64,000 bases of DNA from Lasiodiplodia sp. COLG20 (Eukaryota > Ascomycota > Dothideomycetes > Botryosphaeriales > Botryosphaeriaceae). The DNA lies in the NCBI GenBank assembly GCA_009801085.1, contig VNWV01000003.1:1612001-1676000 (forward strand), given 5' to 3'. The position numbers were made by a program, and so were the translations under genes. How positions within the stretch are numbered: the first letter of the stretch is position 1; every line of letters begins with the position of its first letter. Below the pieces are notes generated by a model. The model searched no databases. It was given only the letters and a program-made list of their open reading frames with translations, and had not been told where the DNA came from. Below are positions 19,973 through 54,106 of this stretch, in pieces.

Positions 19973-20117
19973 GGGGGTGTGGCGCAACGGTAGCGGTAAG
20001 TCTTCAATTATTCGACAACACAAAACATCAAGCATACTAATTCCCTTCATAGCGTCAGATTCCAGATCCAATCTTGGAGTATCCTGAAGGCTGTGCGTTC
20101 AAATCGCACCATCCTCA
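19973..20117 (+). tRNA. tRNA-Trp (CCA) with two introns, one of spliceosomal type in the D-arm
   Basis: Hand folding: acceptor arm 19973-19979 (GGGGGTG) pairs fully with 20110-20116 (CATCCTC, two G-U pairs), discriminator A at 20117. The D stem GCGC (19982-19985) pairs with GCG (19993-19995) plus C at 20053, so 19996-20052 must be removed. Anticodon CCA is at 20062-20064. A short intron of about 16 nt follows base 20065; its TTGGA can pair with the anticodon as usual in tRNA precursors. The T arm GTGCG/CGCAC (20093-20097, 20105-20109) with loop TTCAAAT is perfect. The A box TGGCGCAACGG and B box are intact and uninterrupted, and a run of T follows at 20120-20125. One flaw: pair 31-39 is A-C. 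The 57-nt D-arm insert begins GTAAGT, contains TACTAAT and ends CATAG, i.e. the spliceosomal pattern. The gene may be functional or may be a pseudogene. Confidence 0.8.
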
Positions 20118-23100
20118 TCTTTTTTGCACTTTTTTTCCCCCTGGTCTGTCTTTTGAGTGCCTTGTGGGGTGCAAATGACTCTTCCTCCGCAGTGCCCGGG
20201 TGGAGACGATTGGGTCTGGACTCGGGCGGGCCGTTAGCTAGTTCTTCAGCCGGCCGGTGTGAAGCCGGAGTCTGCTCAACGTTTTGCCGATGAGTACTCG
20301 TGAGAGGAGTCACTACTGGTATTTACTCAAACCTTTTCCCCACCTGGTGGAAACACGACAAAAATCCAGGGCGGATGGATGCTCAGGGGAAGACAGAACG
20401 TTGAAGCATGACGGCTTGCTGCGAAGAGGGTTCAGCACTCGAAGGGTGGTTGAGAGATGAAGAAGACTGCTCAAACCTGATCATCCATGTACTGGATTGC
20501 TGGATGCATGATGGCCCTCCAAAGATCTTTCCCGGATGACTAAGCGATATACTGACCTGCCGTGCCGACATTGGGAACAACAGCTTGCGGTTCGAAACCC
20601 ACATTGAAAATACATTATAATATTCATTTTTGATAGTAGAAGCTGCAAGCAAATCGACACTCGGTACCTATGTCCTGCTGACTCGCACAATCCTTTTGCC
20701 TTATTTATCAGCCACCCCCGCTGTACCTCCGCAATAAACCATCACCTCTCCCATCCTCCTTCTGCTCAGTGCTTGGACAGACGCTGCGCCCTCCCTGTCG
20801 ACGTCAGATGCAGATCACACCTCTAGCACGAAGCCTTGGGTATCCGTCCGTAGCCGCACGACTTTCGAGGACCCTGGTTTCGGAAGACAAGAAGACTTGA
20901 CGAAGGCCGGGTGGCCTGATGTCCGGTTTCGCGCACGAGTCAATCTCAAGTATTGGTTTCAGCACAATACCGTCGAAAGTGACGCAGCAGAAAAGAAAGA
21001 CCGGTCAAGAGCCAAAAAAGATGTGCGGCACGGCGGGGGCAGGGGAACAAAGAACGGGGCTGTGTGCCGGGGGGCGGAAAGGTAGAGTGTGTTGTGCTAA
21101 AGGCAATATTGATTGCCAAGGATGGCGTTACGACGACGCAGAGTCAGGGTCTATTGTGACATATGTTAATCGCTATTCAGTTAGCGGTACAGGTACACAC
21201 TATAGTGGCTGGTCTGCTATAATCGCTACCCGAGGTGAAACGAGAAACGGCGTGGATAGCGAGAAAGCAGGGCAACAAGTGCCGCGCAGCGAATGAGGAT
21301 AAGTAATCCACCGCCAGGGACCAGCGCCTCAATTTCCGGGTACCACACCACTGGAACGTCAGTGATAGGCTCCAAAGTCGGGGCGTTGGGTAAGGGACCA
21401 GAGACGGCTGCTGCTGTGCCGTGTCGGGCCAGAAGGCACGGATCGTCGATTCGTCGTCCTATACATGCTTTTTGGCTGCTCGGATTCTGTGCGAAGGGTC
21501 CAGCGGTAATGACGGTGCGGAGCGAGCCATAGCGTCGCCGTGCACGGGGAGAGAGGGCGCGTGATTGACGTGTGCGGTTCGGATAACGTAAACAGGCAAG
21601 GCGATAGCTCGTGGCGAGCGGGAGCACGCGCAGGGGGCACCGCCGAGAGAGGAATCCAACAAGACAGAGCCCCCAGATCTCTCATCAGCTGAACAGGCTC
21701 CACCAGCAGCGCGCGCGCGAATCATTCCAGCCGTGGTGCCTGATGATTGCCGCGACTCACGGGCGGGAAAAAACGCGCAATCCGCCGCACGTCGCATCAG
21801 CGTCGGACCGGTCAAGAAAAGAAACAGATTAAGGTTGGCTCTCTTTTCGCACCAAGCTTTTCGCGCTTGTCGTCGACTTCGCCTGCTTCAGGCATCCAGC
21901 TCCGCGGCGGATGGCAGCGAGTCGGGGCGACAGGGAACGTCGTTTCATCGGCAGCGGGCATTGAAATGTGCTGTCGCTCCGAATGGAGATCGGCGCGGTC
22001 GGGACTGAAGGCTGCAAAGCCACAGCGGTCGACGTTGGTGTGAAGTGGAGGCAGGCGGTGAGGCCACGGAGGAACTGTACCTTTTTAGCCTGCATCCATG
22101 CTCCGAAACGCATAGCAGCCCATCGCTAGTCGCCCGCGGAACGCTTCCTGTTCTGCCGCCAAAAAGTGGGCCACCGTTCCGACACTGCAGAATATGCGTC
22201 GTCAATCATCCTGACGCCCGATTTGGAACCTGCCAGAGTCATGGGCCAATCTTATCTCCTCGTGCATACCCAGCTTCCCGTATCGATACGCTTCCCGCGC
22301 TCCTTTCTGGCTATTCTGCCTCTTTTTTTAAGCGGGCGGGGTTACGGGCACCTCACTCGCCCGTCCCTTCAGCAGCTTCCTCTCACACACAACCGCAGTC
22401 TCATCAGCCGATGTCCTGTGTCTCATGTTCCTGTCTCAGCCTGCCGCGCCCCGCAGCTTTCTAGAAGAATGCGAAACGGTGCATTTCCTTGCTTTTGGCC
22501 CTGTACCGTGCTCCGCTGCGGGGGACGCTCGCTCCTTTCATTGGTGCCGTCTGATGTCACATCAGACAAGGCTGTGTACACGTGCATCTTTGCTGTGTGC
22601 GACGTTGCTACGCGTGACGCGCAAAATAATCGACTCGTGCATTGTGTGTAACCGTCGAGCAAGCGAAAGGCTTGTGTCGACATTTCCGTACGGAGACAGA
22701 TGGGGAATCCAAAGACAAAGGAAAAGAAAGACATAGGAGATGAGTGACAGGAAGAAGGTGCAGCAGAGGACGTGCGTGACGACCTGTCCGCAAAACGCGT
22801 GGTATCTACCCAACAAAATCGCAACAAAAGCGCCGTCCATTCCCGGTTCCACAACCCGTCCGCTCCCAAGATCGCCAAATGAGCATAACAAATCCACCGG
22901 GGAGAAGCGAAAGGAATAATGAGGTATGTGCTGAGCTCGATAGGAAAAAATACGAAGAAGAAACATCTCGCCAAGACCACGCTCAGCATACAGGAGAACA
23001 TTGATCACCACCTCTCCTGCCCCTATTCCTCCCAGAACATAGCCCTTCGTGACATGTCAAATGAACACCGGGTATACTAAACTTCCCAATCCAAGGAGTT

Positions 23101-52209: not shown

Positions 52210-54106
52210 ATGACCAAGTGCCCAACAGAAGAAGTCGCGGACATCGAGGAGGAGGAGATCTGGCGGATCGACGAGCTAGACTTCGGCGTCACCTTCCACA
52301 CCGTCGCCCAGTAAGCCTCCGCTGTGCCAAGCTGGCTCCCACCAGGCCGCGTCGCTAACCACCACCGTTTCGCAGAATCATTGCCTTCGTTTTCAGCGCC
52401 ATCGCCATCATCATCAGTCTCGTCCTCATTTTCCAACATGCGACCCACTACTCGCGCCCCCTCGAGCAAAAACAGTACGTCCCGCCGCCTAAGACAAGAC
52501 TGGTGCCAAGTGAAGGTTGGCGTGCTTGTCCTTGCGGCTGCCGGATACCCTGTCCCAGTTGCCGACGGCCTCGCTCGTACTCCTCAGCCTCTGCTCCGTC
52601 TTCCAAACCGCCGAGCAGACATTCGCTGCTCTGCCAGCGAGGCCACACGCTGCCCGACTCGACCCTTGAGGGATTCCAGACTAACCTTGGTTTCTCGACA
52701 GAATCATCCGCATTCTCCTAATGATACCCATATATGCCGCTGTTTCCATGCTTTCGATCCACTACTACCATCACCACACCTACTTCGAGGTCATTCGCGA
52801 CTGCTACGAAGCTTTCGCCATTTCCAGTTTCTTCGCCCTGATGTGCCATTACATCGCGCCTTCTCTGCATGAACAGAAGGAATACTTCAGAACCATTGAA
52901 ACCAAGAACTGGGTTTGGCCAGTCACCTGGGGCCAGAAATGCTCCGGCGGGGTAGACAACGGATGGCTGCGCAAGCCCCGGAGTGGTTTGACCTGGTTCA
53001 ATGTAGGTTGATCCATGCGTTTGCGGATATCACGCACTTGGCGTGTCGGGATCTCTCCAGCCGAACGGCGTCTAACAGCTGCACAGATCGTCTGGGTTTC
53101 CGTTTTCCAGTACTGCTTTATCCGCGTTCTCTTCACCGTCGTCGCCGTTCTTGCTGAGAAGTACGGAGTACTGTGCGAGGACTCGCTTTCCCCGGAATAC
53201 GCCCACTTCTGGTCCATGTTCTTCGAATCGATAGCAGTCACCATCGCCATGTACTGCTTGATCCAATTTTATATCCAATTGAAGCAGGACCTTGCGCCGC
53301 ACAGCCCTTTTCTAAAGGTGCTGTGCATCAAGCTGGTCATTTTCTTCTGCTTTTGGCAAAGTACCGCAATCAGCTTCGCCACGAGTGAAGGGTGGCTCAA
53401 GGAATCGGACTGGCTCGCATACGCCGACATTAAGGTTGGCCTTCCGAACCTGCTCATCTGCTTCGAAATGGCCTTCTTTGCCATCATGCACGTTTTCGCC
53501 TTTTCCTGGAAGCCATACGTTATTAAGAAGGGAGATCCGTTTGCGGATCCGCTCGAGGACAGCATGGGGAAGAAGGGGAAGAGGTACAAGGGCGGATTCA
53601 TGGGCATTTTAGCAATTGTGGATGCTTTCAATCCTTGGGATATTGTGAAGGCGTTCGCCCGCGGTCTTCGATGGCTCTTCGTCGGCGTCCGCACCCGGAC
53701 CAACGACATTTCCTACCAGGCACGGATGCAAGGCGCTGGCAGCCCGAATTCTGTGGAAATGGCCACACAAAGTACAACCTACGGCCGCGCTCGGGCGAAC
53801 AGCCGTTTCGATGGAATGGACGAATTCGACCGGAGGTCCAGTTCAGATGTGCAATCGGATCAAGAAAGCCCGTTCGAGCACCCGGACGAAAGGAGGGGAA
53901 GGGTGGCACAGGGGTACATGGCGGCGAGAGACCGGGCGGATAGCGAGACGGCATACTCTCGAACAACCGAGCAAGAAGCAGCAGCGGCAAGAATTGGAAG
54001 GGCAAGAAGCCCGACAGAGGCAGGGTACATCAAGCCAACAGACGACCCAGACGACGACGCGCACTTGCTGTCGAACCAACAGCCACGGCCAGCGCGTTTC
54101 GTTTGA
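52210..54106 (+). CDS. OSTalpha/TMEM184 family membrane protein (DUF300)
   Basis: 506 residues, four exons: 52210-52310, 52376-52474, 52702-53002, 53087-54106; frames join. About seven membrane segments, starting with IIAFVFSAIAIIISLVLIF and including RIIRILLMIPIYAAVSMLSI, FAISSFFALMCHYIAP and LCIKLVIFFCFWQSTAISF. Family signatures include IYAAVSML, a YEAFAISSFFALM block and NLLICFEMAFFAIMHVFAF. The tail from about residue 400 is hydrophilic and disordered (RRSSSDVQSDQESPFEHPDE), probably cytosolic and phosphorylated. The family includes organic solute transporter alpha; fungal members are vacuolar or plasma-membrane proteins of poorly known function. A small acidic N-terminus (DIEEEEIW) precedes the first segment. 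Confidence 0.9.

Follow-up and report, generated by a model that had tools for sequence, protein, structure and literature searches.

Spliceosomal-type inserts in nuclear tRNA genes of the fungus Lasiodiplodia sp. COLG20

The introns of eukaryotic transfer RNA (tRNA) genes are taught as a separate class, located after base 37 and removed by an endonuclease of their own. A tRNA-Trp(CCA) gene found in a stretch of 64,000 nucleotides (nt), hereafter called the window, from the plant-associated fungus Lasiodiplodia sp. COLG20 raises the question of how an insert with the signals of a messenger RNA (mRNA) intron in the D arm of a tRNA is to be understood. The analysis of the genome (43.5 Mb, 88 contigs) revealed at least 19 tRNA genes with inserts of this type, and these are very probably U2-type spliceosomal introns located in nuclear tRNA genes. 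The window corresponds to positions 1612001-1676000 of contig C23; one of its proteins shares 98% identity with a protein of Lasiodiplodia theobromae and another 88% with one of Diplodia seriata, as expected of a Lasiodiplodia-like member of the Botryosphaeriaceae.

The tRNA-Trp gene of the window

The gene consists of three exons separated by two intervening sequences (Table 1; coordinates are positions within the window). The correct fold requires the removal of the first of them, as the original prediction had claimed: with the 57 nt taken out, the D stem (GCGC/GCGC), the acceptor stem (GGGGGTG/CATCCTC, including two G-U pairs) and the T stem (GTGCG/CGCAC) all closed. The coordinates and motifs predicted for the 5' site, the branch and the 3' site of this insert were right on direct reading, with 12 bases of the insert lying 3' of the branch A. 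The second, ordinary intron said to lie past the anticodon was likewise located after base 37 and its 16 nt can pair with the anticodon region.

Table 1. Parts of the tRNA-Trp(CCA) gene, given as window positions
Feature	Position	Strand	Basis
tRNA-Trp exon 1, tRNA positions 1-24, with box A at 19980-19990	19973..19995	+	direct reading
57-nt spliceosomal-type insert, site 24/25	19996..20052	+	motifs; absent in Trp gene L003
5' site GTAAGT of the insert	19996-20001	+	direct reading
Branch motif TACTAAT of the insert	20035-20041	+	direct reading
3' site TAG of the insert	20050-20052	+	insert end is CATAG
tRNA-Trp exon 2, tRNA positions 25-37, with anticodon CCA at 20062-20064	20053..20065	+	
Second, ordinary 37/38 intron, 16 nt	20066..20081	+	position, comparison with L003, hand parse
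tRNA-Trp exon 3, tRNA positions 38-73, with box B core GTTCAAATC at 20097-20105	20082..20117	+	
T6 run, likely RNA polymerase III terminator	20120..20125	+	

The tRNA finder and Rfam reported zero tRNAs anywhere in the window, and ARAGORN with long introns allowed misnamed the gene Gly(TCC). For the spliced Trp genes, ARAGORN gave the right extent of the tRNA and a different anticodon because the 37/38 intron was placed differently; the identity as Trp(CCA) therefore rests on the hand parse and on an insert-free relative. According to the description of tRNAscan-SE 2.0, eukaryotic tRNA genes have no more than one intron (PMC8450103).

A DNA search with the window gene revealed two further Trp genes in the genome, giving three in total. 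The gene on contig C88 carries an insert at the same site with a diverged interior, and gene L003 on contig C37 lacks precisely this insert, which fixes the borders to within one base. The original prediction had regarded the A31-C39 pair as leaving room for a pseudogene. This doubt did not stand, as the mismatch is common to all three Trp genes found, including the insert-free L003, and so carries no message about a pseudogene; moreover, the two insert-bearing Trp genes differ at acceptor pair 6-67 by a double change, T-A versus C-G, that preserves the pairing, and every copy of the initiator Met (iMet) and Phe tRNA genes found has such an insert. It had also been proposed that other tRNA-Trp(CCA) genes be counted, with several normal ones, together with a lack of spliced RNA, speaking for a dead gene; the count could be made and yielded a single insert-free gene. 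The existence of this gene means that the supply of tRNA-Trp need not depend on a spliceosomal route.

Interrupted tRNA genes across the genome

The interrupted genes, at least 19 in number, encompass eight anticodons, nine gene-and-site combinations and eight positions in the tRNA. The affected tRNAs are Trp, iMet, Phe, Pro (TGG, CGG), Ala (TGC) and Arg (TCT, CCG), and the inserts are located at sites 9/10, 10/11, 11/12, 13/14, 24/25, 26/27, 30/31 and 55/56, with none of the 19 at site 37/38. The census is a lower bound. The general tRNA search scored 63 of 1,009 first-look candidates; further genes were reached through low-scoring or misnamed matches of the tRNA search, a pattern search and ARAGORN runs on fetched loci. 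In targeted DNA searches, all iMet genes found (4/4) and all Phe genes found (6/6) were interrupted. Two of three Pro genes carry an insert, which is missing from L106. Three Ala(TGC) copies were identified, two of them with inserts at different sites (55/56 and 9/10); the third, L108, combines the 55/56 insert with a degenerate 5' half and was excluded from the 19. L108 and L158 are tRNA-Ala copies with a 5' half that is replaced or degenerate, and both are likely dead fragments.

A separate pattern aimed at the T arm gave 95 places compared with 76 for a reversed-pattern control. The 71 places followed (the other 24 being 20 already known and four on contig C47, taken for mitochondrial) included 40 with a full T stem, 35 of which could be fitted to a tRNA; two of these 35 had a new insert, namely Arg(TCT) at 13/14 and Arg(CCG) at 26/27. 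The last pattern matched 61 places, compared with 34 for its reversed control, and no more inserts were detected in the 20 of 60 new places that were followed, which yielded one tRNA-Cys gene with an ordinary intron. The majority of the other nuclear tRNA genes seen had a 37/38 intron alone or no intron.

The sequences of the interrupted genes point to live genes. ARAGORN called the expected anticodon in 17/19 spliced genes, in 0/19 unspliced ones and in 50/570 cases of equal-length shifted deletions, and the two failures after removal were both Trp genes, which were parsed by hand. An intron by the anticodon was still called in 14/19 genes after removal; the exceptions were one Arg(TCT) gene and all four iMet genes. 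Pairwise identity was 1.00 in the exons and 0.59 in the inserts for Phe (six genes, 38 exon bases), 0.94 and 0.67 for iMet (four genes, whole tRNA) and 0.94 and 0.72 for Trp (two genes, 35 exon bases). Stem changes among the iMet genes were compensated at two acceptor positions and one T-stem position, where both partners differed and pairing was retained; the D-stem rows for iMet, numbered one base off, were left out of this comparison. A run of at least four T residues was present behind all 19 interrupted genes. A cloverleaf with its anticodon, promoter boxes and a terminator, the hallmarks of a functional tRNA gene, were found, with the boxes intact in 13/19 genes only.

Chance insertion into dead tRNA genes was considered in this context. 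According to a 2014 review, short insertions in the D or T arm, which mostly affect a single one of many synonymous genes, are generally read as marks of pseudogenes when they occur in eukaryotic tRNA genes (PMC4090602), and the lack of the insert in one Trp and one Pro gene as well as the degenerate Ala copy L108 would agree with such a view. This explanation is nevertheless very improbable and was rejected on the basis of the iMet and Phe census and the compensated pairs: the presence of inserts in 4/4 iMet and 6/6 Phe genes argues against dead copies, as do the compensated stem changes among insert-bearing genes, the conservation of exons next to diverged insert interiors in three of four families and the T runs behind all 19 genes.

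The naming of the six Phe genes required separate attention. On unspliced DNA, ARAGORN called them Thr(agt) in three cases, Pro(cgg) in two and Ala(agc) in one, and our own parser without insert removal likewise read Thr or Ala anticodons, which could mean that a single long intron interrupts what are in fact Thr(AGT), Ala(AGC) or Pro(CGG) genes. However, the Thr and Ala readings put the anticodon inside the 5' splice motif and make it differ among near-identical genes, whereas the spliced reading gives Phe(GAA) in 6/6 genes, with an ordinary intron whose sequence complements the anticodon and an anticodon arm matching that of yeast tRNA-Phe. Otherwise, no Phe(GAA) gene was seen apart from contig C47. 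The Thr, Ala or Pro naming was therefore rejected as scarcely conceivable. A conserved hairpin-like stretch was observed by eye about 15 nt downstream of the six Phe genes (L086-L091), ahead of the T run; it has the form CCAGTC...GACTGG with small changes, and once CCGGTC...GACCGG. By eye, the trailers of Ala-AGC and His genes are also hairpin-like.

Signals of the inserts and their possible removal

All 19 inserts are 52-60 nt long, start with GT[AT][AT]G[CT] (GTAAGT, GTAAGC, GTTAGT, GTTAGC or GTATGT), contain a YTRAY branch motif whose A lies 10-12 nt from the insert end, and end in YAG (TAG or CAG). A motif test, devised after the inserts had been seen, was passed by 19/19 real inserts and by 0/380,000 shuffled ones. 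As a control, 67 parsed rows of other tRNA genes were used, 53 of them with an intron; with six misread Phe genes and the spurious L109 subtracted from these, about 46 ordinary introns remain. A span from GT to AG is found in none of the 53, and among the control introns longer than 20 nt, the only ones subjected to the motif test, none passes. The signals resemble those of mRNA introns of this genome as represented by three introns of one Ostalpha-like gene (52210-54103), placed by protein alignment, which start with GTAAGC, GTACGT and GTAGGT, contain CTAAC and end in CAG.

The tRNA endonuclease requires either its ruler to site 37/38 or a bulge-helix-bulge. Introns cut by this enzyme at other sites are known from archaea at similar positions (30/31, 56/57 and others), and in each of the six Phe genes intron bases 2-5 are able to pair with the exon past the 3' cut. 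The 2014 review also mentions tRNAs with two or three introns in the Guillardia theta nucleomorph and non-canonical introns in Cyanidioschyzon merolae (PMC4090602), so that the inserts might represent non-canonical introns of the same kind, processed as in archaea, C. merolae and nucleomorphs. Such processing is quite improbable in this fungus. A full bulge-helix-bulge at the exact borders was found in 0/19 genes and, with the border allowed to slide by up to 2 bases, in 1/19 compared with 29/3,800 shuffled sequences; the outer helix in the Phe genes fails, with 2/4 pairs formed. Removal by the endonuclease would also not explain why 19/19 inserts have a 5' site, a branch motif and a 3' site set at constant distances, and this reading was rejected for want of the bulge-helix-bulge at the borders. 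The location of the inserts away from site 37/38, the lack of a bulge-helix-bulge and the GT-branch-AG arrangement at fixed spacing together argue for spliceosomal introns.

Two further sources of the inserts were tried and rejected. Self-splicing introns are larger and have a conserved catalytic core, although putative group I introns as small as 56-81 nt reportedly occur in the ribosomal DNA (rDNA) of Phialophora (PMC3160393). With 52-60 nt the inserts are too short for group I or II introns, there was no Rfam match to these in the window, and the base before the insert is T in 1/19 genes only, while group I introns expect U. The spread of a single element was the second candidate. Across gene families, the insert interiors had a mean local score of 11.5 (148 pairs) versus 10.8 for shuffled sequences (513 pairs), and the best score was 22 versus 20; since this likeness is hardly above the shuffled level, no common source is visible.

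Other features of the nuclear tRNA genes were noticed. The 37/38 introns are common and long, reaching 68 nt in tRNA-Gly, and occur in Asp, Glu, Gly, His, Leu and Arg genes, among others; the Glu and Gly genes listed in a published Aspergillus niger tRNA table are intronless (PMC6108506). A dispersed family of nine tRNA-like copies (GAGCCG[AG]TGGTGTAATGG...; L118, L124, L128, L140, L143, L149, L163, L167 and L171) has similar 5' flanks and, according to the parser, introns of 44-46 nt. Of the four copies given to ARAGORN, three were named Arg(TCT) and one Ile(TAT), and by eye TTCTACG is present in six copies and TTATACG in three, so these near-identical genes differ in their anticodons.

Promoter boxes, maturation route and known systems

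Several observations weigh against spliceosomal introns in these genes or narrow what follows from them. Judged by the box A and box B consensus sequences, box A is split by the insert in five genes (both Pro, Ala 9/10 and both Arg(TCT) genes) and box B in one (Ala 55/56), so that initiation in these six is harder to explain. The compared mRNA introns, of 65, 227 and 84 nt, are longer than the tRNA inserts. The Pro inserts are as alike as the Pro exons (0.93 for both; two genes, 30 exon bases), so that at 93% identity they show no insert-specific divergence and are uninformative. Visual inspection showed acceptor pair 6-67 to be a T-T mismatch in both counted Ala(TGC) genes. The DNA search with one Arg(TCT) gene matched its own query and four Lys genes without detecting the second Arg(TCT) gene; iMet or Phe genes that lack an insert but have diverged could likewise have escaped detection, and the assembly may be incomplete. 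To our knowledge, there is no direct precedent for spliceosomal removal of an intron from a polymerase III tRNA transcript, the known hosts being U6, U3 and ribosomal RNA (rRNA). Finally, the Aspergillus niger table lists two Phe genes of 73 bp and two Met(CAT) genes of 72 bp, all of them intronless, which shows that not all filamentous ascomycetes have these genes interrupted (PMC6108506).

As regards the iMet and Phe searches, an insert-free relative would have been expected to appear in them, because a match of 68 bases at 81% identity had been enough to reveal the insert-free Trp gene. The split promoter boxes bear on another explanation, in which polymerase II reads the tRNA genes within longer transcripts and the intron is removed only there, for example during the processing of a host-gene RNA. 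Splicing by the spliceosome is as a rule coupled to polymerase II, and the internal promoter of six genes is interrupted; in 13/19 genes, however, the insert lies between intact box A and box B, and the T runs behind all 19 are terminator-like, which makes transcription of this kind unlikely. Some introns may even repair what they break. In the Pro and Ala 9/10 genes, the AG of the 3' splice site and the following exon rebuild 9 or 10 of 11 box A letters, and the 5' end (GTAAGTTCGATCC) of the Ala(TGC) 55/56 insert, in the T loop of L107 on contig C1, holds the box B core GTTCGATCC; the promoter of L107 may thus be restored inside its intron. The repair of box A is less clear for the two Arg(TCT) inserts. 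Spurious best matches of the box search, such as those for box B in Pro-CGG and for box A in the two Arg(TCT) genes, were disregarded. The box letters contributed by introns may have a promoter role.

In the proposed maturation route of the window gene as a tRNA gene with a spliceosomal intron, RNA polymerase III would transcribe the gene, as suggested by box A, box B and the T runs. The spliceosome would then read GTAAGT, the branch motif and YAG and excise the 57-nt intron, whereupon the D arm could fold. The tRNA endonuclease and ligase, the established pathway for 37/38 introns in other fungi, would presumably excise the 16-nt intron next; its position is seen in the gene and the order of the two steps is deduced. 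The evidence from motifs and comparison favours both parts of the original prediction in this respect, that the insert is a spliceosomal-type intron, which appears to hold for a whole class of genes, and that the second intron probably requires the tRNA endonuclease.

Since every iMet and Phe copy found is interrupted, translation would depend on the spliceosome through tRNAs as well as mRNAs, a consequence deduced from a census that is a lower bound. It is fairly likely that all cytosolic tRNA-iMet and tRNA-Phe need the spliceosome, that the precursors of tRNA-Phe and of the interrupted tRNA-Trp have to pass through two unrelated splicing systems one after the other, that inserts of tightly restricted size arose several times at eight positions, and that some introns supply the broken promoter letters (the box B core in Ala 55/56, box A letters in Pro and Ala 9/10). 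If true, the spliceosome can act as a tRNA maturation enzyme and translation is tied directly to its activity. Annotation tools could then miss or misname essential tRNAs, as in the lack of any expected anticodon in ARAGORN before insert removal, and the genome would provide a natural setting in which to test how the spliceosome acts on polymerase III transcripts and how introns enter compact structured genes.

No earlier report of spliceosomal introns in tRNA was found in the open-access literature, most subscription journals and bioRxiv preprints being outside this scope. The D-arm and Phe junction patterns had 0 matches in viral contigs, and the D-arm pattern had five in bacterial genome contigs, all in unrelated sequence. 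Among known systems, spliceosomal introns in the rDNA of lichen-forming ascomycetes, reportedly described by Bhattacharya and colleagues in 2000, are alike in being spliceosomal-type introns of a non-coding RNA and differ in that the host is rRNA, made by polymerase I. U6 small nuclear RNA is a polymerase III transcript. Fungal U6 introns share with the inserts described here the presence of an mRNA-type intron in a small structured polymerase III RNA, and a 2017 account names U3 and U6 as the sole small structured RNAs in which introns were known to be frequent (PMC5832005). In this fungus, however, the host is a tRNA and no part of the spliceosome, many genes and sites are involved, and 14/19 genes have a second, 37/38-type intron, unlike U6; the sole strong U6 match in this genome covers the whole model in 100 bases and is thus intronless. 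Fungal U3 small nucleolar RNA introns also interrupt a small structured RNA according to the same account (PMC5832005), whereas here the hosts are tRNA genes with inserts within the D, anticodon and T arms. Archaea, nucleomorphs and C. merolae have introns in these same arms, sometimes two or three per gene, and the 2014 review, which names nucleomorphs and C. merolae, presumes that eukaryotic genomes seldom contain non-canonical introns (PMC4090602). The introns of archaea, nucleomorphs and C. merolae depend on a bulge-helix-bulge or, in Guillardia theta, are just 3-24 nt long (PMC4090602); the inserts described here, by contrast, have no bulge-helix-bulge at their borders and carry splice-site and branch motifs at fixed spacing.
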